Shown here piece after piece: positions 13,154 through 25,895 of a DNA stretch of 64,000 nt. How positions within the stretch are numbered: position 1 is the stretch's first letter; every line of letters starts with the position of its first letter. The stretch is from the NCBI RefSeq assembly GCF_024972755.1, contig NZ_CP087724.1, forward strand, positions 1,488,001-1,552,000, given 5' to 3'. This DNA is from Halanaeroarchaeum sp. HSR-CO. Its GTDB lineage: Archaea > Halobacteriota > Halobacteria > Halobacteriales > Halobacteriaceae. Below the pieces are notes generated by a model. It was not told where the DNA came from and searched no databases. It was given only the letters and a program-made list of their open reading frames with translations. The position numbers were made by a program, and so were the translations under genes.

Positions 13154-14206
13154 TTAGCGCCCGGGATTTGCGATCAGGTGGATCGACTCCGGATCGACGC
13201 CGACGAAAACCGTGTCGCCGACCGCCGCGTCGAGCGCCGCGTAGGCAGACGTGGTCAGCCGAGCGGTGATCTCGACACCAGCCTCGACGTCGAGTTGAAC
13301 CGCCGCTTCCCGCCGCGAGACCCCGACGAGTTCTCCGTCGATCCACTGGCCGTCGGTCGGCTGGTCCGCCCGGACGGAAACGTATTCGGGACGGATACAC
13401 GCGAGTGTCTCCCCCTCGGCCCTGTCGCTGGCCTCGATTTCCAGACCGGATTCGAGTTCTACCGAGGTCGAGTCGCCGTCCCAGGTGGCCGTCCCCTCGA
13501 AGACGTTTTCCGTGCCGACGAACTGCGCGACGAAGCGGGAGTTCGGCTCTTCGAAGACGGTCTCGGTTGTCCCGGTTTGGACGATCTCACCGTCTTTCAT
13601 AACGGCCAGACGGTCGGCGAGGCGAATCGCCTCCTCCCGTCCGTGGGTTACGTGTAAGACCGTGACGTCAGTCTCGGCCTGGATCGATTCGAGTTCGTCG
13701 ATGATCTGCTCCTTCGATGGCACGTCGAGCGCGCTGACTGGCTCGTCGAGGAGGAGAACCTCGGGATCGAGGACGAGACTCCGGGCGAGGGCCACGCGCT
13801 GTTTCTCACCGCCGCTGAGCGTCCGGGGATACCGGTGGCGCAGATCGTCGATATCTAGCAGGTCGGTGAACCGGTCCACTCGGCCATCGATTTCGGCCTC
13901 GGAGACGCCCTGGATCCGACCGAACCGAATGTTCTCCTCCACCGTGAGGTGGGGAAAGAGCATGTAATCCTGGTAGACCATGCTGATCGGCCGATCCTTC
14001 GGCGCAGCACCCGTGATCTCCCTTTCGTCGAGTTCGACTCGGCCCGCGTCGGCGGTGTAGATTCCTGCCTATACTTCGAGGAATATGGTCTTGCCCGACC
14101 CCGTCGGTCCGACGAGGACGAAGTACTCGCCCTCCCCGACGTGCAGGTCGACGTCATTGAGCGTGAACTCGCCCAGATCTGCCGTGAGCCCGGTAATCTC
14201 GAGCAT
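13154..14206 (-). pseudogene. Molybdate/tungstate-type ABC transporter ATPase with in-frame TAG
   Basis: From the ATG at 14206 the frame reads MLEITGLTADLGEF and reaches Walker A (GPTGSGKT, about residues 35-42). It then meets TAG at 14071-14069 (codon 46), and continues uninterrupted with AGIYTADAGRVELDEREI, a Q-loop (MVYQDYMLFP), the signature LSGGEKQRV, Walker B (VLLLDEP), the H-loop (THGRE) and a C-terminal TOBE-like region. Everything else fits a ModC/WtpC/TupC subunit of about 350 residues. The stop separates Walker A from the rest, so neither piece can hydrolyse ATP unless the stop is read through. The permease gene ends just upstream, at 14209. Confidence 0.8.
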
Positions 14207-14208
14207 GG

Positions 14209-14997
14209 TCAGTAGATGGTGGCATCCCCGCCGAAGCGTTCCAGTACGTACAGTGCCACGAACGAGACGATGACGAGGATAATCGCGGCGGCGATGGCCA
14301 GTTCTATTTCGCCGCTCGACATGTTCAGGAAGACCGCGATCGGGAGAGTCTCAGTCTTCATCCGGGTTGCGCCCGCCAGCATGAGGACCGCGCCGAACTC
14401 GCCCATCCCCTTGGCCCACGTAATCGCTGTGCTGGCCAGAAAACCGTTCTTGGCCATTGGTAGAGTCACCTTGCGGAACGTCTCGGCGTGAGTGTACCCG
14501 AGTGTCTTCGCCACGTGTTCGTATCGGGGGTTGATTCCGTCGAAAGTCGAGCGCATGATCCGGATAGCGAAGGGCACGTTGATGAGGAACTGGGCCATCA
14601 CGATTCCGGATTTCGTGAAGACGAACTCGATACCGAAACGGTTGAGTACGTCACCGATCGGCGTGTGGCCGAAAAAGAGTAAGAGCCCGACCCCAGCGAC
14701 GAGCGGTGGCAGCGCCAGCGGCACGTTGACGATTGTCTCCGCGAAGGACTTCCCGGGAAACTCCGTGCGAGCCAGGGCATAGCCCGTTGGCACCGCCACG
14801 ATCATGCTCATAATCGATGAGACGGTTGCGGTGAGCAAACTCAATCGGATCGAGAAGAGGATCTCCGCAGACTGGAGGTTCGTCACAAGCGCCGCTGGTG
14901 TGGTCTGGATTGCGAGCATGCCGATGACGGCGACGATGAATGCCGCCATCACCACCACAGAGACGCCGGTGAACTGGTTGAACGTTCTCGCTTCCAT
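14209..14997 (-). CDS. Molybdate/tungstate-type ABC transporter permease
   Basis: 262 residues from the ATG at 14997 (MEARTFNQFTG). The frame is open to 15405, but that extension overlaps the binding-protein gene in another frame. It has six hydrophobic helices and the BPD-transporter EAA loop (around HVAKTLGYTHAETFRKVTLP), which docks the ATPase. It has the single-domain ModB/WtpB/TupB layout with ALPPLVAGVGLL and NVPFAIRIM. It lies between the binding protein (28 bases upstream) and the damaged ATPase (2 bases downstream), so the three form one operon. Confidence 0.87.
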   Translation of the reverse strand: MEARTFNQFTGVSVVVMAAFIVAVIGMLAIQTTPAALVTNLQSAEILFSIRLSLLTATVSSIMSMIVAVPTGYALARTEFPGKSFAETIVNVPLALPPLVAGVGLLLFFGHTPIGDVLNRFGIEFVFTKSGIVMAQFLINVPFAIRIMRSTFDGINPRYEHVAKTLGYTHAETFRKVTLPMAKNGFLASTAITWAKGMGEFGAVLMLAGATRMKTETLPIAVFLNMSSGEIELAIAAAIILVIVSFVALYVLERFGGDATIY

Positions 14998-15025
14998 CGT
15001 CACTCGAGCGCGGTTTCGACGACCA

Positions 15026-15856
15026 TCATTCACCCTCGTACTTGCGATAGCCGAACGCCGCGAAGATGTCTCGACCCTCGCTGGCCACGAAGTCGACGAA
15101 CTCCCCGGCCACCTCGGGGTGGGTGGCAAACTCCAGGCGTCCGATCGGGATGGTCTTGATGATGTTTTTCGCTTCGGCGATAGGGACCCGGTCGACCTTC
15201 TCGTCCATGCCGTGGACGTCAGCCCGCCAGGTGATGGCGGCGTCCACCTGCTCCTGGGCGGTGTAGACGACGAGTTCGTTCGTGGTGCCTGCAGTCGTCG
15301 CGACGTTCTGCTGGACGGCTTCGTAGAGGCCGTTTTGTTCCAGAATTTTCTTTCCGAGGCGACCGATGGCCGCTGCCCCCGGATCACCCAGCGCCACGTC
15401 CACACCTTCGTCGGTGAGATCGGATAGCGACGAGACGCCGGCTGGATTGCCTTCCGGGACGATGATCGACGGCGTGTGGTAGGCCACCAATTTCTTCTCC
15501 GCGATGAAGCCCTTCTCGTCGGCGGTGTCGATGTAGTATTTCGCGCCGGGCATGTAAACGTCGCCTTGCTTGTTCAGTTCGATCTGGCTCAACAGGGTAT
15601 TCGACCCGGCGTAGTTGTACTGGACTTCGGTACCTGTTTCGGCCTCGAACTCGGCGCCGATCTCGTCCATCGGCTTCTTGAGACCCGCGCCGCTGTACAC
15701 TAGAATCGATATCGTGTCTGCCGCGCTGGTCGTTCCGGTCGTTCTGATAGTGGTAGACTCCTCGGCCGTCGAACCACCGGAACAGCCAGCGAATCCAGTT
15801 GCGATCCCTGCACCAGCCGCCGCCAATACCTGTCGCCTGGTACGATGTATCGCCAT
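15026..15856 (-). CDS. Molybdate/tungstate-type ABC substrate-binding lipoprotein
   Basis: 276 residues from MAIHRTRRQVL (15856). An upstream Met at 15877 would add seven residues before the signal. The N-terminus has a twin-arginine motif and a lipobox (TGFAGC), so the protein is exported folded and lipid-anchored. The mature part has the ModA fold: ISILVYSGAGLKKPMDEIG, ALGDPGAAAIGRLGKKIL, and AITWRADVHG near the C-terminus. ModA/TupA-type proteins bind molybdate or tungstate; the exact oxyanion cannot be told by eye. It is the first gene of the operon and has a possible operator at 15911-15936. Confidence 0.85.
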   Translation of the reverse strand: MAIHRTRRQVLAAAGAGIATGFAGCSGGSTAEESTTIRTTGTTSAADTISILVYSGAGLKKPMDEIGAEFEAETGTEVQYNYAGSNTLLSQIELNKQGDVYMPGAKYYIDTADEKGFIAEKKLVAYHTPSIIVPEGNPAGVSSLSDLTDEGVDVALGDPGAAAIGRLGKKILEQNGLYEAVQQNVATTAGTTNELVVYTAQEQVDAAITWRADVHGMDEKVDRVPIAEAKNIIKTIPIGRLEFATHPEVAGEFVDFVASEGRDIFAAFGYRKYEGE

Positions 15857-15910
15857 CGATATATCGACTTCGTTCACGCGGGAAAATAGTAGTTTTGAAT
15901 CGACATCGTA

Positions 15911-16762: not shown

Positions 16763-16776
16763 TTAGGCATGCCTAA
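16763..16776. promoter_or_regulatory. DtxR/IdeR-like metal-repressor box 1
   Basis: TTAGG-CATG-CCTAA, a perfect 5-4-5 palindrome (in fact symmetrical across all 14 bases). It follows a TATA-like GATATTTA at 16758-16765 and ends 16 bases before the ATG at 16793. The form resembles the TTAGG...CCTAA boxes bound by DtxR/IdeR/SirR-type iron- or manganese-dependent repressors. The same architecture recurs at 17985, 22849 and 25100. Confidence 0.7.
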
Positions 16777-16792
16777 CTCTACTGTCGAATGC

Positions 16793-17959
16793 ATGCCCCC
16801 CGAACCTGATACGTGTGTTATCGTTCCAACGATCAGGGACTATGACGCGATGCGGGCCTACTTCGAGAACGCCCGCGACCACAATTTCGACCTCGAAAGA
16901 GTGTTCGTCGTCCTCGTCACCGAAGACTTCTGTGATACCAGGGGAATGCGAGCGATGCTCGACGACGAGGGAGTTTCGGGGGCGGTTTTCGACGAGAGTG
17001 CCCGCGAGCGGTGGTTCGATGAACGAGGGCTATCGGAATACTCCCATCTGATTCCGGAAGCGAGTCACGCCCAGACCTCGTTTGGTCTCCTGTATCTCTG
17101 GGCGAACGAAAGGTTCGACTACGGATTCTTCATCGACGACGACACACGACCGCTCGCCGACGTCGATTTTTTCGGCACGCATCTCCGCAATCTCGAATAC
17201 GAGGGACTTCTTCCCGCAGTCGAATCCGACGAAGACTGGGTCAACGTACTCCATCAGAGTGATACTGACCTCTACCCCCGGGGCTACCCGTACGCGGCGA
17301 TGGGCGAAGAACGCGTGAAGACCGAAGAGTACGTCGACGGCGTGGTGGCGTCCCAGGGGCTCTGGACGAACGTGCCCGATCTCGATGCCGTGCGGATACT
17401 CATGGACGGCGATCTCGATGGGCAGGCTCAGACTCGCACGAGCGCAAGAGATTACGAAGATGATTTCGTCGCTGCAGATGGCAATTACCTCACGGTCTGT
17501 TCGATGAATCTCGCGTTTCACCGCGAGATCGTGCCGGCGTTCTACCAGCTCCCGATGGACGATAACGAGTGGGGGATCGCTCGATTCGACGACATCTGGT
17601 CGGGTCTTTTTCTCAAGCGGGCCTGTGACGACCTTGGCAGGCAGATCTACAACGGTGATCCGCTGTGCCGACACGACAAGGCGCCCCGGTCAACGTTCGA
17701 GGACCTCCAGAACGAGGTGGCCGGGCTGGAACTGAACGAACACCTCTGGCACGTCGTCGACGACGTGGACGTCGATGCCGAATCGTTCGCTGAGGTATAC
17801 CGGGCCATCGCGGACGAACTCGTAGCGGGTGACTACAGTGACTGGAACAACGGAGCGTTCTTGAACTACTGTGGACGGTACATGCAAGACTGGCTCGAGT
17901 GCCTGGACGAAATCGAGGAGCGACGCGAAACGGTCCAACCGGTGATGGCCGATGACTGA
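16793..17959 (+). CDS. RGP/UDP-arabinopyranose mutase-like protein (alpha-1,4-glucan-protein synthase family)
   Basis: 388 residues from the ATG at 16793 (MPPEPDTCVIVPTIRD). The ATG at 16769 lies inside the repressor box, so it is unlikely to be the start. Family marks are VIVPTIR at the N-terminus, the nucleotide-sugar DDD motif in YGFFIDDDTRP (about 115-117), and YPRGYPYA further on. Plant RGPs are UDP-arabinose mutases and self-glucosylating proteins; the activity of archaeal members is not known to me. The protein is soluble and acidic. The stop overlaps an upstream ATG of the next frame, so co-transcription with the iron-type binding protein is likely. Confidence 0.78.
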   Translation: MPPEPDTCVIVPTIRDYDAMRAYFENARDHNFDLERVFVVLVTEDFCDTRGMRAMLDDEGVSGAVFDESARERWFDERGLSEYSHLIPEASHAQTSFGLLYLWANERFDYGFFIDDDTRPLADVDFFGTHLRNLEYEGLLPAVESDEDWVNVLHQSDTDLYPRGYPYAAMGEERVKTEEYVDGVVASQGLWTNVPDLDAVRILMDGDLDGQAQTRTSARDYEDDFVAADGNYLTVCSMNLAFHREIVPAFYQLPMDDNEWGIARFDDIWSGLFLKRACDDLGRQIYNGDPLCRHDKAPRSTFEDLQNEVAGLELNEHLWHVVDDVDVDAESFAEVYRAIADELVAGDYSDWNNGAFLNYCGRYMQDWLECLDEIEERRETVQPVMADD

Positions 17960-17984
17960 ATCGAACCGCAATCGTTTAGACGAT

Positions 17985-17998
17985 TTAGGACAGCCTAA
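17985..17998. promoter_or_regulatory. DtxR/IdeR-like metal-repressor box 2
   Basis: TTAGG-ACAG-CCTAA, a 5-4-5 inverted repeat just after the RGP-like gene stop and five bases before the ATG at 18003 of the Fe3+-type binding protein. It could give the transporter its own iron-controlled promoter in addition to read-through from box 1. Confidence 0.7.
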
Positions 17999-18002
17999 AA
18001 AC

Positions 18003-19178
18003 ATGGAACCAGAGAGGGGGTTGCGGAGACGACAGATCCTCGGAGCGGTCGGCGCGGCGGCCGCGACCGGCCTGGCAGGGTGTGCCGGATTGCGAGACGT
18101 CGTGGGCGGGGGTACCGACCCTGATAGGTCGCAAGATATCGAGATACCGCCGCTGGCCGAGTTCAGAGGCTCCGGCGCTCTCATCGAAGGGCGCCCCGCA
18201 CCGAGTGGCACGTCCATCCAGGACCTCCCGGACCTCTCGGGGTCGCTGAATCTCTATATCGGCGGTGGTGAGGGAGGCATCTACTACCAGTTCGTCGAGA
18301 TGCTCGAGGAAATCTATCCCGACTTTCAGGTCTTTTCCAGCAGCGCTGCCTCCTCCTCGCTCGCGCAGACCATCGTCGAAGAAGTCGGGAGTCAGTCGGC
18401 ACAGGCGGACGTTTTCTGGTCCATCGACGCGAGTTCGCTCGGCTACGTCGCCGACAATAACGCGTACGAATCGCTGCCGAACGATGTGGTCGATCCCGTC
18501 CCGAGTTCGTTCCGAGGGTCCGACAACGCATGGGTCGGCGTCGCCGGTCGCGCCCGGAGTATTCCGTACAACTCCGAGCAACTGAGCGAAGACGACATTC
18601 CAGCGAGCGTCATGGACATCCCGGAGACGGACGCGCTCCTCGGGACGATGGGATGGGCACCGACGTACGGCGCGTTCAAGTCGTTCGTCACCGCCATGCG
18701 ATTACTCGAAGGCCCCGAGACGACCCGTGAATGGCTCGTCTCGCTCCGAGAGGCGGGCACCCAACGATTTCCCAACGAGTTCGTCGTCTCGAACCAGGTC
18801 GCCGATGGTACACTGGGCGCTGGGTTCGCAAATCACTACTACGCATTGCGCGTGAAAAACAGCCGACCGGACGCTCCGATCGATCTTGCGTTTACCAAGA
18901 ACGACGCTGGAGCGCTCGTGAACGTGGCGGGCGCTCTCCGCATAAAGGGGACGCAGAAAGACGAACTCGTGAACGATTTCATCCGCCACCTACTGTCCGC
19001 CGAGGCCCAGGAGTACTTCGCAACGGTCAGCTTCGCGTATCCGATGATCTCGGGCGTTGCTCCTCCGGGGGGACTACCCACCGTCGACGAACTGAACCCA
19101 CCGGACATCGATATCGCCGCACTGGCCGATCTCGAACCGACGCTGGAACTCATGCGAGAGGCTGGGGTCTCGGGCTGA
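18003..19178 (+). CDS. Fe3+-type (FbpA/FutA-like) ABC substrate-binding lipoprotein
   Basis: 391 residues from MEPERGLRRRQILG. An earlier ATG at 17952 overlaps the upstream stop, but would place the box inside the gene and lengthen the n-region. A twin-arginine signal and lipobox (TGLAGC, Cys about 27) anchor it outside the membrane. The mature domain shows the ferric-binding pattern: LYIGGGEGGIYYQ near the start, RSIPYNSEQL, and the tyrosine pair in GFANHYYALR that ligates Fe3+ in FbpA-like proteins. It is followed four bases later by its permease. The metal-box promoter fits iron acquisition; a different ferric chelate is possible. Confidence 0.85.
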   Translation: MEPERGLRRRQILGAVGAAAATGLAGCAGLRDVVGGGTDPDRSQDIEIPPLAEFRGSGALIEGRPAPSGTSIQDLPDLSGSLNLYIGGGEGGIYYQFVEMLEEIYPDFQVFSSSAASSSLAQTIVEEVGSQSAQADVFWSIDASSLGYVADNNAYESLPNDVVDPVPSSFRGSDNAWVGVAGRARSIPYNSEQLSEDDIPASVMDIPETDALLGTMGWAPTYGAFKSFVTAMRLLEGPETTREWLVSLREAGTQRFPNEFVVSNQVADGTLGAGFANHYYALRVKNSRPDAPIDLAFTKNDAGALVNVAGALRIKGTQKDELVNDFIRHLLSAEAQEYFATVSFAYPMISGVAPPGGLPTVDELNPPDIDIAALADLEPTLELMREAGVSG

Positions 19179-19182
19179 AGGG

Positions 19183-20811
19183 ATGGGAGTGTTCGAGTGG
19201 CTCACGTCCTTCGTCGAGTCCGCCACTGAGGAGGACTCGTCGGCCGTCGGCACGGGATTGACGTTCCTCGCTGCGGCGATAGCGGCGCTTCTCGTGTTGC
19301 CACTCGGCTGGTTGGTCGTCGACGTATTCAACCTTGGCCCGCGAGCGGTCGAACTCACGGTGAATCCAACGACGTTTCAGGTCCTTTTGCGGAGCATCGC
19401 GCTCGTCACAGTGGTCACCCTCGGAAGTATCGTCGTCGGCGTTCCACTCGCCGTTCTCACGGTACAGGCTGCGATTCCCTTCCGCCGATTCTGGACGGTC
19501 GTCTCGGCACTTCCGCTCGCCATACCGAGCTACCTGGGAGCGTTCGCTGTCGTTTCTGCCTTCGGGCCACGTGGCGCGTTTTCGAGAGTCCTCGCCCCCA
19601 TCGGTATCGAGCAGATCCCCACTGTCTACGGGTTCACGGGTGCGGCCGTCGTGCTCGTCTTCTATACCTATCCGTACGTGTTCCTGACGACCCGGGCCTC
19701 GTTGCTCTCGATGGACGCCTCGCTCGTCGAGGCGGCACGCACGCTCAATACTGGTCGGTGGGAGGCGTTTCGGCGGGTCACTCTGCCACAAATCACACCT
19801 GGTATCGCCGCGGGGGCACTGCTCGTCTCGCTGTACACGCTCTCGGACTTCGGAACCCCGAATATCATGCGGGTCGAAGTGTTCACGCAGTTCATCTACG
19901 CCCGGTACAACGCGTTCATGCGCGATTACGCGGCACTTCTCTCGCTGCAGCTGTTCGCCGTCACGGCGGTGATTCTGGCCATCGAATCCCGCATCGGCGT
20001 CGACGAATCCGGGGCGTACGCGAGCAGTGCGAACCGGGGGGCGGCGACCCTAGACCTCGGTCGGTGGCGTTACCCAGCGATGCTCGTCCCCGCCGGAATC
20101 GGGCTCGTTGCGATCGTCCTTCCCGTCGGAATCTTCGCGATCTGGCTATTACGAACCGGCCCGGGATACGCAACGGGATCGATGTCGTTCTCCTGGTCGT
20201 ACGGCCTGAATTCGGTGTACGTCGCGGTACTCGCCGCAGCCGGTGCGATCGTCGTCGCCTTACCCATCGCGTTGCGCTCTGCGGTCTCGGACTCGCGGCT
20301 GGCGAAAATTTCCGACCGTGCCCCGTACATCGGGTACGCGACCCCGGGGATCGTCCTCGCAATCGCGCTCGTCAGTTTCAGCCTCGACGTGGTCCCGGCC
20401 CTCTACAAGACGATCCCACTCCTCGTCTTCGCGTACGTGGTTCGATTTATGCCACAGGCGATCGGATCGATCAGGACCTCGACGCTACAGGTCGACCAAC
20501 GACTCACCGAGGCCGCACGGACGCTTGGCCGGTCCCGTTTCAGCGCATTTCGCGAGATAACGTTCCCGTTGATCGTTCCCGGAATCGCGACCGGGGCCGC
20601 ACTCGTCTTTCTCACCACGATGAAGGAATTACCGGCGACCCTCATCCTCCGACCGTTGCGGTTCGACACCCTCGTGACGTATATCTGGCGAGTTCAAGAG
20701 GCAGGGTTGTACGGGAAGGCGGCCATCCCGGCGCTCGTCCTGGTCGTCGTTTCCGGCATCTCGATGGCGGTAATACTCGCACAAGCGGGTGGTCGGAGCC
20801 CCGAACAGTGA
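19183..20811 (+). CDS. Fe3+-type ABC transporter permease (two fused MetI-like halves)
   Basis: 542 residues and about twelve helices. There are two EAA loops, EAARTLNTGRWEAFRRVTLP (about residues 185-204) and EAARTLGRSRFSAFREITFP (about 444-463), which shows that it is an internally duplicated FbpB/SfuB-type permease. It would pass ferric iron across the membrane from the preceding binding protein. It begins four bases after that gene. No ATPase follows, which is odd for the family. The only ABC ATPase in the window is the damaged one at 13154-14206, so an ATPase elsewhere must serve it. Confidence 0.87.
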   Translation: MGVFEWLTSFVESATEEDSSAVGTGLTFLAAAIAALLVLPLGWLVVDVFNLGPRAVELTVNPTTFQVLLRSIALVTVVTLGSIVVGVPLAVLTVQAAIPFRRFWTVVSALPLAIPSYLGAFAVVSAFGPRGAFSRVLAPIGIEQIPTVYGFTGAAVVLVFYTYPYVFLTTRASLLSMDASLVEAARTLNTGRWEAFRRVTLPQITPGIAAGALLVSLYTLSDFGTPNIMRVEVFTQFIYARYNAFMRDYAALLSLQLFAVTAVILAIESRIGVDESGAYASSANRGAATLDLGRWRYPAMLVPAGIGLVAIVLPVGIFAIWLLRTGPGYATGSMSFSWSYGLNSVYVAVLAAAGAIVVALPIALRSAVSDSRLAKISDRAPYIGYATPGIVLAIALVSFSLDVVPALYKTIPLLVFAYVVRFMPQAIGSIRTSTLQVDQRLTEAARTLGRSRFSAFREITFPLIVPGIATGAALVFLTTMKELPATLILRPLRFDTLVTYIWRVQEAGLYGKAAIPALVLVVVSGISMAVILAQAGGRSPEQ

Positions 20812-20824
20812 TACGAACGTTCGA

Positions 20825-22846
20825 ATGACAATGCAGCACCGGCATCGACACCTCGGAACTCTCGCAATTGCAATCGTCGGAGCAGTGGCTGTGGGGATCA
20901 TTTCGACCCAGGTGTTTCCGTACCATTCGTTGAACCACGACGAGGGCGTCTACCTTCAGCAGGCGGCGATGCTCCTGGAGGGGCAGTTGCACCTCTGGCC
21001 ACCCGTCGAGGGGATCTTTCGACCGTGGTTTTTCGTCGAAGACGGCGGGCGGTTGTACCCGAAATACACCCCGGTTCCTGCAGCGATGTTTGCAGTAGGC
21101 GAACTCCTGGGAGGCTATCGACTGGCGCTCGTCGGTATCGCTGCCGCCAACCTGGCACTCGTGGTCGGTGTCGTCCGCGAGGTCTTCGAACCGCCGACGG
21201 GGTTGCTAGCCGGCGCGTTCGTCCTCGTCTCCCCGCTCTTTTTGATCGATTCGTCGGTGTTCCTCCCGTACGCACCGACGACGATGCTCAATCTTTTGTT
21301 CGCCTACGGGTACCTTCGGGCCGATCGAACCGGAGAACGACGGTGGGCAGTGGCCTCTGGCGCCGCCGTAGGACTCGCGTTTTTCGCACGCCCCTATACG
21401 GCTGTGCTGTTCGCGGCTCCGTTCGTCCTACATGCACTCTGGACGCTCGCCGTCGACTGGTCGGCTGCGGTAACACGACAGGTGATCGTCGCCTCGCTCG
21501 GAGTGGTAGGGGTGGCAACGGCCTTGGCGTACAACGCGATGATGACAGGGTCGCCGTGGGTGTTCCCGTACCAGGCGTTCGGGCCACTGGACGGACCGGG
21601 GTTCGGCCACCGCCAACTGCTGGCTCACGAGGTCACCTACACGCCGGAACTCGCTGTGGAAGCGAACCGAGCCGTCGTCGAACTATTCTTCACGGAGTGG
21701 ATCGCAGGCGGCGTCTTCGGGGTAGCGTTCGCTCTGGTCGGACTCGTTCAAATGAGCAGACGACCTCGATCACCCCGAGAGATACTCCTCGCCGGGCTGT
21801 TCGTCTCTGTCATCGTCGGTAACGTGTTCTTCTGGGGAAATCTCAACCTCCTGGGAGACATCGACCGGGCCGGTGACGGACTCGTCGCCGCGTTCGGGCC
21901 CTACTACCACTTCGACTTGTTGCTTCCGACGGCTGCGTTCGCCGCTGCTGGTGCAGAACGGCTGGCCGGTACGTCGTGGCGACGACTCGCCTCACGCCTC
22001 GATCGTCGCCTCGCTCGAACCGCGTTCGTCCTCGTGTTGTTCGTTAGTGCGGGCCTCGTCGGCACCGTCACCGCGTCCGATTTGAACGAGCGCCTCGAGG
22101 AAAACCTGGATGTGACCGAAACGTACGAGGTGGCCTACGAGCCCCTCGAGGATGGCCCACCCGAGAACTCGGTCGTACTGGTGCCAGATCCCTACGGTAA
22201 CTGGCTGAACCATCCGTTCCAGCCGTTGCGAAACGAGCCCGGGTTCGATGGTCCAACCGTATACGCGATCGACGATCGGCCGTTTTCGGTCGCTGACGAG
22301 TATCCCGACCGTCGAATGTACCGGTACAGGTACCGCGGAGCGTGGGCTCCGTACGCGGGCTCGCCGGAAGCAGCCCACCTCCAGCGGGTTCGCGACGTCT
22401 CCGGAGCGGTGATCCGCCACGAGGCGACTCTGGGTATCCCCGATGGTGCTGTCGGTGTCACCGCTCGAATCGAGACGGACGGAGGCTCAGCGTACTACGT
22501 TGCACCGGGGACGGCGGATAGTCTGGATTTCGACCTCGTCATCGAGGACGGCCGAGTCTCGGCAACGGGCGACTTGCAGGCCCTGGATAATGGATCGGTC
22601 GTTGTGGACGGTCGGGATACCGTCCGGGCGACCGTCTTCGTCGACTACGGTCCCAGTGGGGGGTTCGAGTATCGGATGGCGCTCCCGGTAGATGCCTCGG
22701 ACGACGAGGTGCGCGCGCTCTCTCCCCGTATCGAACACTGCCGTGAAGTTCGCACTTGTGGTGGGGAGGCAGCGTACATACCCGAAGTGGCGTCGGACGG
22801 CGTGTTCGTTCGGAGCACCCTCGGCGTCCACAATCCAAATTCATAA
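20825..22846 (+). CDS. GT39/ArnT-like polytopic membrane glycosyltransferase-type protein
   Basis: 673 residues from MTMQHRHRHLG (20825). The first ~420 residues hold about ten to twelve helices. The first outer loop has the acidic pair in NHDEGVY (Asp39-Glu40) at the position of the catalytic acidic residues of PMT/ArnT-like GT-C enzymes. About 250 residues of soluble domain follow (from about NERLEENLDV), with no recognised fold. GT-C enzymes move sugars from lipid-phosphate donors on the outer face. It starts 13 bases after the permease, so it is likely in the same transcript. Acceptor and sugar are unknown. Confidence 0.68.
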   Translation: MTMQHRHRHLGTLAIAIVGAVAVGIISTQVFPYHSLNHDEGVYLQQAAMLLEGQLHLWPPVEGIFRPWFFVEDGGRLYPKYTPVPAAMFAVGELLGGYRLALVGIAAANLALVVGVVREVFEPPTGLLAGAFVLVSPLFLIDSSVFLPYAPTTMLNLLFAYGYLRADRTGERRWAVASGAAVGLAFFARPYTAVLFAAPFVLHALWTLAVDWSAAVTRQVIVASLGVVGVATALAYNAMMTGSPWVFPYQAFGPLDGPGFGHRQLLAHEVTYTPELAVEANRAVVELFFTEWIAGGVFGVAFALVGLVQMSRRPRSPREILLAGLFVSVIVGNVFFWGNLNLLGDIDRAGDGLVAAFGPYYHFDLLLPTAAFAAAGAERLAGTSWRRLASRLDRRLARTAFVLVLFVSAGLVGTVTASDLNERLEENLDVTETYEVAYEPLEDGPPENSVVLVPDPYGNWLNHPFQPLRNEPGFDGPTVYAIDDRPFSVADEYPDRRMYRYRYRGAWAPYAGSPEAAHLQRVRDVSGAVIRHEATLGIPDGAVGVTARIETDGGSAYYVAPGTADSLDFDLVIEDGRVSATGDLQALDNGSVVVDGRDTVRATVFVDYGPSGGFEYRMALPVDASDDEVRALSPRIEHCREVRTCGGEAAYIPEVASDGVFVRSTLGVHNPNS

Positions 22847-22848
22847 GT

Positions 22849-22862
22849 TTAGGCCAGCCTAA
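22849..22862. promoter_or_regulatory. DtxR/IdeR-like metal-repressor box 3
   Basis: TTAGG-CCAG-CCTAA starts three bases after the GT39-like stop and ends 10 bases before the ATG at 22873. ATAAGTTTA immediately before it can serve as TATA element, so the box would cover the promoter of the dehydrogenase pair. Confidence 0.7.
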
Positions 22863-22872
22863 TCCTAGCACG

Positions 22873-23421
22873 ATGCGACTGACCCGTCGTGACGCGCTCG
22901 CGGCGTTGACTGCAGCAGGCGTCACGGTTGGCGGCGGTGCTCTCTTTCTCTCCACGGGCGAACCCGAATCCACAGCGGACGGAACCGCCGAACACCGCCT
23001 CGACGAATCGACCGTCCGTACACTCGTTGCTGCTGCGGAGGTCCTGTATCCATCCGAGGTCGAGGGGACCGAGGAGTTCGTCACCAGTTACGTTCAGGGG
23101 AAGGTCGAGGAGCGGCCGGACCACGGCCGTGGTATCGCGGACGCGGTCGACTACCTCGACGACTACGCCGTCGCGTGGTACGACGCGAAATTCGCGGACC
23201 TCGTTCCGTCCGATAGAGACGAAGCGCTCGAACGGATGAACGCCGACACAGCCGCTCCCGACCCGAATGGGTCTGACGTGGAGCGTGTTCGATACTTCGT
23301 GGTCAACGAGTTGCTGTACGGGCTATACACGACGCCGACTGGTACAACGTTGGTCGGTCTCGAGAACCCCCGCGGCCATCCCGGCGGTTTGGCCAGTTAC
23401 CAGCGAGGCCCCCAATCGTGA
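22873..23421 (+). CDS. Gluconate 2-dehydrogenase subunit 3-like protein (GMC partner)
   Basis: 182 residues from MRLTRRDALAALTAAG. The twin-arginine motif and hydrophobic stretch to about residue 25 form a Tat signal or anchor; no lipobox cysteine is visible. The soluble part has the features of the gluconate-2-dehydrogenase gamma family (VRTLVAAAEVLYPSEVEG, then VRYFVVNELLYGLYTTPTG and a conserved-looking NPRGHPGG near the end). These subunits accompany GMC flavoproteins and help export or hold them at the membrane. Its stop overlaps the GTG start of the flavoprotein (GTGA), a clear two-gene unit. Confidence 0.78.
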   Translation: MRLTRRDALAALTAAGVTVGGGALFLSTGEPESTADGTAEHRLDESTVRTLVAAAEVLYPSEVEGTEEFVTSYVQGKVEERPDHGRGIADAVDYLDDYAVAWYDAKFADLVPSDRDEALERMNADTAAPDPNGSDVERVRYFVVNELLYGLYTTPTGTTLVGLENPRGHPGGLASYQRGPQS

Positions 23422-25061
23422 CGGGCGACAGCGACCGAACACCTTCCGATCGGGTCGACGTATGCATTATCGGCGCTGGGCCAGCGGGAGCACTCGTCGC
23501 GGATCGACTCGCCGCGCGCAGACACGAAGTGGTAATCCTCGAGGCTGGACCGCGCTTCGACCGGGCCGATCGGATCGAACGGATGGAGCGGTCGATCCGA
23601 CCGTCGCACGACCTTCCGTCCGTCTGGGACATGGGTGGCGAACGGGACGCCTACACGTCGACGGGGGAGTGGTTCTATCCACTCAATAACTCACGAGTCA
23701 AGGGCGTCGGTGGAACGACGCTCTCCTGGCAGGGGATGGTCATGCGCCTCCACGAGGTCGATTTCGAGATGCGCTCGGAGTGGGGCGTGGCGGCGGACTG
23801 GCCGATAGACTACGAGGATATTCGACCGTACTACGGGAGCGCAGAGTCGGCGTTGGGCGTCGCCGGGGCTTCGGACAACCCTTTCGCACCCCCACGGGAG
23901 TCGCCACATCCCATGCCTCCGTTCCCACCGTCCCACAGCGACGCCAGGTTCGCGGAGGCGTGCGAACGGCTCGGCGTCGCGACGCACTCGGTTCCGAACG
24001 CTCGGAATTCTGCGCCCTTCGACGGCGACTCGAAGTGCGTCGGCTTTGGAACCTGTAAACCGGTCTGCCCCACCGACGCCAAGTACGACGCGACCCGTAC
24101 GATCGAGAAGGCGACGGACGCAGGCGTTCGCGTCATCGATCGGGTCCCCGTTCAACGACTAGAGCACGACCGGTCGGGGCAGGTGATCGACGCAGCCGTC
24201 TACGTCACTCCGGACGGGGAGACCCACCGACAGACGGCGCGGCAATTCGTCCTCGCGGCAGGGGGCATCGAGACGCCGCGGTTGCTCTTGCTCTCGGAGT
24301 CCGAGACCTACCCGGACGGACTCGCGAACTCGAGCGGCCTCGTCGGCCGCTACTTCATGGAACACCTGTTCGCGGGAACCGGTGGGATCGTCGACTGGCG
24401 GACCCGTCAGAATCACGTGGGATTCCTGACGAGCGAGACCCACCAGTTCTACGACGATCCGGCCGCGGGTACCGAGCGCGGGATTCCACCGGCCGACGCA
24501 CAAACGGCCGCGTTCACCCCCATCAAACTGGAGTTCTTCAACTACGCGGGGCCGTCACCGGTCGGCTTGGCGCTCGATAGCGACATCTGGGGCGACGAGT
24601 TGCTCGAATCGCTTCGCGACGCGTACGGGAACAGTATCGCGATGGGTGGGCTCGTGGGACAACGACCCCGGAAGGACAACTTCGTGGGGTTGGACTCTTC
24701 GAAGACCGACGATCACGGGAATCCGGTCCCCCGGGTCCACTGGCGAGTCGACGACGTAACGAAGCGCTCTATTCGACGGGCGAACGAGATCCAGGAAACG
24801 ATCCTGACCGAACTGGGGGCGGAGTTGACGTGGCAGGTCGGTCCCGAAGAGACCGGGCCCGCCTTCCATCACATGGGGACGACACGGATGGGAACGGACC
24901 CGGCGGAGAGCGTGGTGAATCCCCGGATGCGTACGCACGACCTCGACAACCTGTGGATCGCCGGGAGCAGCGTCTTCGTCACGAGCGGCGCGATGAACCC
25001 GACGCTCACCATCGCGGCGCTGGCTCTCAAACTGGCGGACCACGTGGACGAATCGCTCTGA
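23418..25061 (+). CDS. GMC-family FAD oxidoreductase (sugar/alcohol dehydrogenase type)
   Basis: 547 residues with a GTG start overlapping the preceding stop. The FAD loop is IIGAGPAGALVADRLA (about 15-30), followed by GVGGTTLSWQGM, the family's flavin-contact segment. A cysteine-rich CVGFGTCKPVC lies in the middle, with the catalytic-base region HHMGTTRMG and the C-terminal signature TSGAMNPTLTIAALALKLAD. The size and the partner point to the membrane-associated gluconate/sorbitol-type dehydrogenase branch, which oxidises sugars or sugar acids and passes electrons on. The actual substrate is unknown. There is no own signal, so it may be exported with the Tat-bearing partner. Confidence 0.85.
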   Translation: MTGDSDRTPSDRVDVCIIGAGPAGALVADRLAARRHEVVILEAGPRFDRADRIERMERSIRPSHDLPSVWDMGGERDAYTSTGEWFYPLNNSRVKGVGGTTLSWQGMVMRLHEVDFEMRSEWGVAADWPIDYEDIRPYYGSAESALGVAGASDNPFAPPRESPHPMPPFPPSHSDARFAEACERLGVATHSVPNARNSAPFDGDSKCVGFGTCKPVCPTDAKYDATRTIEKATDAGVRVIDRVPVQRLEHDRSGQVIDAAVYVTPDGETHRQTARQFVLAAGGIETPRLLLLSESETYPDGLANSSGLVGRYFMEHLFAGTGGIVDWRTRQNHVGFLTSETHQFYDDPAAGTERGIPPADAQTAAFTPIKLEFFNYAGPSPVGLALDSDIWGDELLESLRDAYGNSIAMGGLVGQRPRKDNFVGLDSSKTDDHGNPVPRVHWRVDDVTKRSIRRANEIQETILTELGAELTWQVGPEETGPAFHHMGTTRMGTDPAESVVNPRMRTHDLDNLWIAGSSVFVTSGAMNPTLTIAALALKLADHVDESL

Positions 25062-25099
25062 AGTCCGCCGTGGGTGGTCTATCGGTCGCCGTTCTCGAT

Positions 25100-25113
25100 T
25101 TAGGCGAACCTAA
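25100..25113. promoter_or_regulatory. DtxR/IdeR-like metal-repressor box 4
   Basis: TTAGG-CGAA-CCTAA, the fourth 5-4-5 repeat. It lies 39 bases after the GMC stop and ends 32 bases before the ATG of the GT2 gene. A TATA-like AAATTTAAA follows directly at 25112-25120, so here the box is just upstream of the core promoter rather than over the start. Confidence 0.7.
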
Positions 25114-25145: not shown

Positions 25146-25895
25146 ATGACCTCCCAGCCCGATCGCGAGGACCAGCCGACGCCGTACACGTTCGACGACG
25201 TGAGCGTCGTCATGGGAACCTACAACGAGGAGGCTGCCATCGCCACCGTTCTCCGTGACATCGAGGACGTAACGGACGGTGCAGCCGAGGTGTGCGTCGT
25301 CGACGGCTCTACGGACCGGACCCCGGAGATCGCCCGCGAACACGGTGCGACCGTCATCGAACAGGAACCACAGGGGTACGGCGTGGCCGTCAGCGAGGCC
25401 CTCCGCTCGGCGAATCGGCCAGTCGTCGTCACGACGGATTGTGACGATACGTACCCCATGGAACGTCTCCCCGAGTTTCTCGCTGCCATCAACGACGGTT
25501 ACGACGTCGTCAGCGGTGACCGACTGTACCACGGGGCCGACGCGATGCCGGCCGTCAACCGATACGGGAACATCGCGTTCGCCGTGCTCGCGAGTGTCCT
25601 CATGGGAAAACGTGTCCACGACACGACCACTGGGATGCGCGCGTACCGACGAGAGGTCATCGAGACCATCTCCTGGACGGAGAACACCGGGCTTTCTGCG
25701 GAACTGCTTATCCGTCCACTCATGCGGGGGTACGAGGTCCGCGAACTTCCGATCCAGTATCGTGATCGAAAGGGGACGACGACACTCGATCCCCTCACTG
25801 GCGGTATCGAGATAGCGAAATCCATCGTCAAGGTCGCCCTCGAAGAGCGCCGTAATGGGTCCGGGACGGATAGCTCGATCCCCCGACCAGCGTGA
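25146..25895 (+). CDS. GT2-family dolichyl-phosphate hexosyltransferase-like protein
   Basis: 249 residues with no membrane helices. It is a GT-A fold enzyme: VVMGTYNEEAAIATVL at the N-terminus, VVDGSTDRTPEIARE, the metal-binding acidic motif in VTTDCDDTYP (about residues 97-106), and a later TTTGMRAYRRE acceptor region, as in dolichyl-phosphate mannose/glucose synthases. In haloarchaea such enzymes charge dolichyl phosphate with a sugar for protein N-glycosylation or other surface glycans. It could supply the lipid-linked donor for the GT-C-type protein at 20825. It is monocistronic under box 4. Confidence 0.83.
   Translation: MTSQPDREDQPTPYTFDDVSVVMGTYNEEAAIATVLRDIEDVTDGAAEVCVVDGSTDRTPEIAREHGATVIEQEPQGYGVAVSEALRSANRPVVVTTDCDDTYPMERLPEFLAAINDGYDVVSGDRLYHGADAMPAVNRYGNIAFAVLASVLMGKRVHDTTTGMRAYRREVIETISWTENTGLSAELLIRPLMRGYEVRELPIQYRDRKGTTTLDPLTGGIEIAKSIVKVALEERRNGSGTDSSIPRPA

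Follow-up and report, generated by a model that had tools for sequence, protein, structure and literature searches.

Haloarchaeal GT75/RGP proteins lie behind a conserved metal-type box and are co-inherited with two enzymes of a proposed surface-sugar pathway

Most of the sampled salt-loving archaea carry a relative of the reversibly glycosylated polypeptides (RGP, GT75) under an iron-type control site, together with two partner enzymes, which suggests a surface-sugar pathway active when iron is scarce. The system is real, class-wide and strongly conserved: a known family in a new setting, with one telling change in the active site. We consider it rather probable that three enzymes (GT75, a DolP-sugar synthase and a GT-C enzyme) decorate the cell surface with a sugar, probably a furanose, and are derepressed at low iron. 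The window, meaning the whole stretch of DNA analyzed (64,000 nt of Halanaeroarchaeum sp. HSR-CO), contains the following features of the locus.

16763 to 16776, no strand: metal-type palindrome TTAGGCATGCCTAA before the RGP gene, beside a TATA-like ATATTTA (exact pattern match)
16793 to 17959, + strand: GT75/RGP family protein, 388 aa (PF03214 59.4 bits; MtdL 7yua E 1.2e-24; fold Z 36.0)
17985 to 17998, no strand: second box, TTAGGACAGCCTAA, before the substrate-binding protein (SBP) gene (exact pattern match)
18003 to 19178, + strand: ABC transporter substrate-binding protein, iron type (SBP_bac_6 41.9 bits; adjoins RGP in 75/81 loci, these being the best 80 of 246 relatives plus the window)
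19183 to 20811, + strand: ABC permease, fused double type (BPD_transp_1 82.6 bits; annotated in relatives as iron ABC transporter permease)
20789 to 22846, + strand: membrane glycosyltransferase, GT39/PMT-like, with C-terminal DUF7846 and uncertain start (PF25230 141 bits; PMT_2 31.8 bits)
22849 to 22862, no strand: third box, TTAGGCCAGCCTAA (exact pattern match)
22873 to 23421, + strand: gluconate 2-dehydrogenase subunit 3 family protein with Tat signal (PF13618 33.1 bits; TIGR01409 17.6 bits)
23418 to 25061, + strand: GMC-family FAD oxidoreductase (GMC_oxred_C 87.9 bits)
25100 to 25113, no strand: fourth box, TTAGGCGAACCTAA (exact pattern match)
25146 to 25895, + strand: dolichyl-phosphate hexose transferase, GT2 (NF041391 402.5 bits, cut-off 375)

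The 388-residue open reading frame starts with ATG at 16793, and its stop ends at 17959. The original prediction had assigned its product to the RGP family, with DDD and YPRGYPYA motifs, and had proposed as checks a structure model, a family tree and a profile search, the last of which could have put the protein in an unrelated glycosyltransferase family. The search returned Pfam RGP instead (PF03214, 59.4 bits, E 4.4e-16, curated cut-off 23.8), and both motifs were found (DDD at residues 115-117, YPRGYPYA around R163). Among solved structures, the best sequence match was MtdL (7yua, E 1.2e-24), and rice UAM2 was a marginal one (E 0.007). The structure was modeled from 21 class members (mean pLDDT 81, pTM 0.86; low confidence at residues 153-170 and 199-215). 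The model predicts a GT-A fold that includes the GT75 core and the C-terminal helices, and it matched MtdL with Z 36.0 (349 residues aligned, rmsd 2.9) and rice UAM2 with Z 27.1; the remaining GT-A enzymes among the matches listed reached Z 14.9 at most. Because both the fold match and the sequence match were stronger to MtdL than to rice UAM2, the nearest characterized relative is the bacterial MtdL and not the plant UDP-arabinose mutases. The plant enzymes, for which the family is best known, are members of it but not the closest kin. In the tree, the haloarchaeal rows formed a single clade separate from the four outgroup rows; with so few outgroup rows, three of them on very long branches, the tree does not settle the origin of the family.

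Relatives of the gene carry the GenBank name "alpha-1 4-glucan-protein synthase", which is annotated on eight plasmid-borne haloarchaeal relatives. Taken at its word, the name would describe a glycogenin-like primer that starts an alpha-1,4-glucan. We regard this as highly improbable: no glucan synthase was annotated in the two neighborhoods read, RGP is co-inherited with the DolP and GT-C enzymes (below), and the name was presumably carried over from old plant annotation.

Three further kinds of RGP gene were seen. A genome of the same family has an additional plant-type RGP (L002, 1495-2472, - strand; PF03214 E 1.1e-135, 278 bits against rice UAM2) beside its haloarchaeal copy. Three loci (L026, L027 and L028) represent a divergent haloarchaeal subfamily, with N-terminal PTVRN for PTIRE and no box. 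A planctomycete plasmid (L114, 7827-8780) carries a GT75 relative that is annotated as hypothetical and retains the plant-type Asp-Ser-Ala motif.

The haloarchaeal protein was compared with MtdL of Marinactinospora, a GT75 enzyme described in the accessible part of its report as a GDP-L-galactose/fucose pyranose mutase (PDB 7yua/7xps; PMC9937993). Three sites in the gene carry most of the comparison.

17066 to 17068, + strand: His92 codon, at the position of MtdL Asp87 (ungapped stretch of the MtdL alignment; 104/104)
17135 to 17143, + strand: DDD triad D115-D117, metal/diphosphate site (104/104; equivalent to MtdL D109-D111, PMC9937993, accessible part)
17279 to 17281, + strand: Arg163, equivalent to the autoglycosylated Arg (MtdL R159, rice UAM1 R158; 104/104; PMC9937993, accessible part)

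The likeness extends over the whole fold (Z 36.0), the DDD triad, the glycosylated-Arg position, the Mn-binding His and the D195, S228, R257 and D260 positions. Equivalents of MtdL D109, D110, D111, R159, D195, S228, R257, D260 and H287 were each present in 104/104 distinct haloarchaeal sequences, with Asp195, Arg257, Asp260 and His287 appearing as D196, R264, D267 and H294. All 104 have R163, the equivalent of the arginine on which plant members are reversibly glycosylated, and its glycosylation is predicted. The two proteins differ in sequence (approximately 23% identity), in three residues (MtdL Asp87/Gln229/Thr13 are His92/Met238/Pro12 in RGP) and in setting, MtdL belonging to an antibiotic cluster and RGP to an iron-boxed envelope module. 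Among the catalytic positions checked, Gln229 (Met238, as in the plant-type row L002) and Asp87 (His92) were the sole exceptions; the others were invariant and kept. Compared with the plant RGP and UDP-arabinopyranose mutases, the haloarchaeal protein shares the Pfam family, the RGYP motif and DDD (DDN in rice UAM2, 8cid), and L002 also shares its Met238. It differs in the weaker fold match (Z 27.1 to 8cid), in Ser-His-Ala in place of the plant-type Asp-Ser-Ala (L002), in a longer N-terminal half and in the separation of its clade from the four outgroup rows.

The His at the MtdL Asp87 position was found in 104/104 distinct haloarchaeal sequences. When the protein was aligned to plant-type rows instead, the Asp fell on Ser91 of the window RGP; under either alignment (His92 or Ser91), no carboxylate is predicted at this position. 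The haloarchaeal RGP lacks one of the residues expected of an active GT75 NDP-pyranose mutase. Three aspartates of MtdL surround the sugar, and mutating them abolishes activity; Asp87 is among them, and D87N and D87S were both inactive (PMC9937993, accessible part). The inactive rice UAM2 likewise has no Asp there. On these grounds the haloarchaeal GT75 might not be a mutase at all; it might supply the same DolP/GT-C pathway with a sugar that it does not rearrange, either as a carrier that glycosylates itself or as an ordinary glycosyltransferase. We think this rather unlikely, because the remaining catalytic residues checked were invariant and kept, except for Q229 (Met238, as in the plant-type row), because D267, the proposed base for both chemistries, was kept, and because His is able to serve as a base and the invariance of His92 argues for a role. 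Mutase activity is thus likely but, given the replacement in 104/104, not assured: either His92 would act as the replacement base or the chemistry would differ. For the same reason, the protein is placed here as a member of GT75 and not as a proven mutase. The GT75 mechanism is unsettled, and the natural Asp to His change is a direct way to test it. According to the part of a 2023 paper that could be accessed, characterized GT75 enzymes came from plants and two antibiotic-producing bacteria only (PMC9937993), and we found no measured activity of an archaeal GT75 member.

The control site is a perfect TTAGGNNNNCCTAA palindrome, 17 nt upstream of the RGP start. Perfect TTAGGNNNNCCTAA sites number four in the window, and they fall within the 8.4 kb from 16763 to 25113; 0.01 were expected in the whole window, and four sites were reached in 0/100 shuffles. 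The boxes precede the RGP, substrate-binding protein, gluconate-dehydrogenase-like and GT2 genes in one 9-kb stretch. Only perfect or near-perfect sites are informative, because a two-mismatch pattern gave 11 sites, close to the 7.8 expected. The 2.79-Mb genome has nine TTAGGNNNNCCTAA sites, compared with two for the pattern read backwards. Five of the nine lie outside the locus: one is 17 nt upstream of a gene (L130, 1501-1518) that we take from its sequence to be SufC-like, for Fe-S cluster assembly, one is approximately 100 nt upstream of an FbpC-like ABC ATPase gene, and the three others have no evident iron gene directly downstream.

Two samples of RGP loci were used for the conservation of the box. 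The first had 30 haloarchaeal-type loci (29 other genomes and the window, with the plant-type L002 set aside); the box stood in front of RGP in 22/30 and was absent in 8/30, the latter including all three members of the divergent subfamily. These box-free RGP genes are a counterpoint to control by the box. The larger sample had 81 loci, namely the window and 80 haloarchaeal loci chosen by RGP similarity and not by the box; as the best 80 of 246 relatives, they give neighborhoods biased to close kin. Their 1.59 Mb contained 250 boxes, whereas 29 palindromes of the same composition averaged 0.24 (largest 3) in the same loci. In this sample of the best 80 of 246 relatives and the window, the box preceded RGP in 75/81 loci, five of the six others had a one-mismatch box, and 60/75 substrate-binding protein genes had a box near the start. 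A chance origin of the box was ruled out by the counts in the window, the 81 loci and the whole genome.

The usual position of the box is approximately 30 nt upstream of the start codon, the place expected of a leaderless haloarchaeal promoter. Placement at such a promoter is consistent with repression, and the box has what would be expected of a DtxR-type metal regulon: a shared palindromic candidate operator at the promoter. The DtxR-type HTH PF01325 was found in the genome at five places over the cut-off and at one below it. The apparent iron control of the original prediction is an inference with good backing, the box being conserved before RGP across the class and found also before the SufC-like and FbpC-like genes. 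The claim that RGP comes first in an iron-controlled transcript held for the box; first position is uncertain, as a separate box (17985-17998) precedes the next gene, which likely starts at 18003, and RGP may for that reason form a separate transcript with its own promoter. Of the two candidate starts of the next gene, 17952 and 18003, the second is preferred, the box lying between them. The haloarchaeal DtxR-family regulons (Idr/SirR/TroR, FerR) are alike in having iron-linked genes under a regulon signal; the fhu operons of H. volcanii, for example, have a ferR signal (PMC11349517). A counterpoint to low-iron derepression is that no protein under the RGP name appears in Table 1 (changes of at least tenfold) of the Haloferax iron-starvation proteome.

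The metal could also be manganese or another metal and not iron, in which case the Mn2+ requirement of GT75 would be the reason for the co-regulation of RGP. Some DtxR-family repressors are Mn sensors, and the genome has five DtxR-type HTH places over the cut-off. The dependence of GT75 on Mn2+ or Mg2+ points the same way (PMC9937993, accessible part). We judge this distinctly unlikely, since the same box stands before the SufC-like gene and the FbpC-like ATPase gene and since the permease is annotated as iron in relatives.

In one annotated relative, the gene order was alpha-1 4-glucan-protein synthase (RGP), SBP, iron ABC permease, ATPase, glycosyltransferase family 39, gluconate 2-dehydrogenase subunit 3, GMC oxidoreductase and dolichyl-phosphate hexose transferase; a second annotated relative showed a variant order. 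In the best 80 of 246 relatives and the window, neighbors included at least 75 SBP, 69 GT-C, 62 GT2, 51 permease, 42 ATPase, 42 subunit 3 and 33 GMC genes in the 81 loci, the counts being lower bounds from gene calls made in this analysis. The GT-C/DUF7846 protein has several TM-like segments. In 99% of 69 rows, an Asp-Glu pair (D51/E52) comes just after the first of them, presumably where GT-C enzymes have their catalytic acid. Together with the GT2 match to NF041391 (402.5 bits), this pair is as expected of a predicted DolP-sugar/GT-C pathway. The GT2 had no TM segment in 61/62 rows. It is like AepG (HAH_1206) of Haloarcula, a DolP-glucuronosyltransferase for an acidic exopolysaccharide, in being a GT2 that charges dolichyl phosphate for an extracellular haloarchaeal glycan; AepG, in contrast, has two predicted C-terminal TM segments (PMC9943897, accessible part). 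AepG is the precedent in haloarchaea for surface polymers supplied by DolP-sugars, but the GT2 of the module looks distinct from it.

The RGP gene was present in 305/391 sampled Halobacteria genomes. In a phylum-wide sample it was found in 34/246 genomes, and the positives among the matches listed were all in the order of the window; neither this sample nor the tree settles whether the source of the family lies within or outside the class. A peculiarity of one genome was ruled out, the gene, box and neighbors recurring across the class. The combination of RGP and metal box, predicted as unexpected, is thus real but not special to one genome. RGP and DUF7846 occurred together in 300 of 382 genomes, with 0 discordant (the 382 are taken to be the first of the 391, which leaves out five RGP-positive genomes, G384 and G386-G389). 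RGP and NF041391 over the cut-off were both present in 154 and both absent in 40 of 194 genomes, again with 0 discordant, and weaker GT2 homologs occurred everywhere in that sample. Negatives in these comparisons are absences from complete positive lists. By genus labels, at least eight genera of the 194-genome sample contained both states (RGP and GT2 present or absent). In 12 genomes picked for an apparently large distance between the two genes, GT2 was 45-105 kb from RGP in nine and on another contig in three, so linkage alone does not explain the agreement, and neither does mere clustering or a single ancient loss. The SBP was found in 153/154 RGP-positive but also in 10/40 RGP-negative genomes (E ≤ 1e-60). 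No strict tie between this transporter and RGP was therefore found among the 194 genomes, and RGP is less tightly partnered by the iron-type ABC transporter than by GT-C and GT2. The FAD-type UDP-Gal mutase PF03275 was nearly absent (2/116, weak matches), which makes GT75 the only predicted candidate for such a mutase in most genomes of the class.

In the proposed pathway, the haloarchaeal GT75 would act in the cytoplasm, dependent on a metal but free of flavin. DDD/H294 would bind the NDP-sugar, R163 would be linked to the sugar transiently, and the enzyme would most likely release an NDP-furanose. Dolichyl phosphate would then receive the sugar from the GT2. From DolP, the membrane-bound GT-C/DUF7846 enzyme would pass the sugar on to an acceptor that lies outside the membrane. 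When iron is plentiful, a DtxR-type repressor on TTAGGNNNNCCTAA would turn the set off; at low iron, the glycan change would be made alongside the ferric-type ABC importer. Two facts make a furanose the likeliest cargo: furanoses are what GT75 mutases produce (PMC9937993, accessible part), and very few genomes of the class have the FAD-type mutase. The family name of the GT2, hexose, is a counterpoint. We infer the order of the steps, the furanose product, DolP as the donor to GT-C and the low-iron derepression; the basis in hand is the family, the fold, the active-site residues, the conserved box and neighborhood and the fact that the three enzymes are strictly co-inherited.

The glycosylation genes and the transporter may, however, merely be neighbors under one regulator, the glycan being a general stress or envelope change with no part in metal uptake. 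The SBP-type transporters of 10/40 RGP-negative genomes favor this, as do the GMC and gluconate-dehydrogenase subunit genes, found near RGP in at least 33/81 and at least 42/81 loci (best 80 of 246 relatives and the window). On the other side, the SBP follows RGP in 75/81 of those loci, each with its own box in most, and one shared low-iron regulator is a functional tie in itself. We give the reading as neighbors a substantial chance, somewhat short of even. The fullest version of the surface-sugar pathway, which we hold tentatively, would be induced by iron starvation and dolichol-linked, with a flavin-free GT75 mutase (Asp to His) supplying a furanose that GT-C transfers to a surface acceptor, possibly an iron-binding lipoprotein or an iron-gathering glycan oxidized further by the GMC/gluconate-dehydrogenase pair. 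That pair (22873-25061, behind a box) is a possible exported sugar-oxidizing enzyme induced with iron uptake.

GT75 enzymes are the flavin-free route to furanose sugars. If the proposal is true, a class-wide archaeal branch of GT75 (305/391 genomes) ties metal starvation to envelope glycosylation, and a furanose route exists where the usual FAD mutase is nearly absent. In the open-access literature searched, we found no paper on an archaeal RGP/GT75 under iron control.

Two observations concern transporters. No ATPase gene lies between the permease and GT-C genes of the window (20789-20811), unlike in relatives (L128, 1608-2801). The boxed FbpC-like ATPase gene, approximately 1.08 Mb away in the same genome, encodes a protein 63% identical to the locus ATPase of a relative, and a broken or decaying transporter was thereby ruled out. 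Upstream of RGP, a second, separate ABC transporter (binding protein, permease and ATPase; 13154-15877, - strand) has no box.
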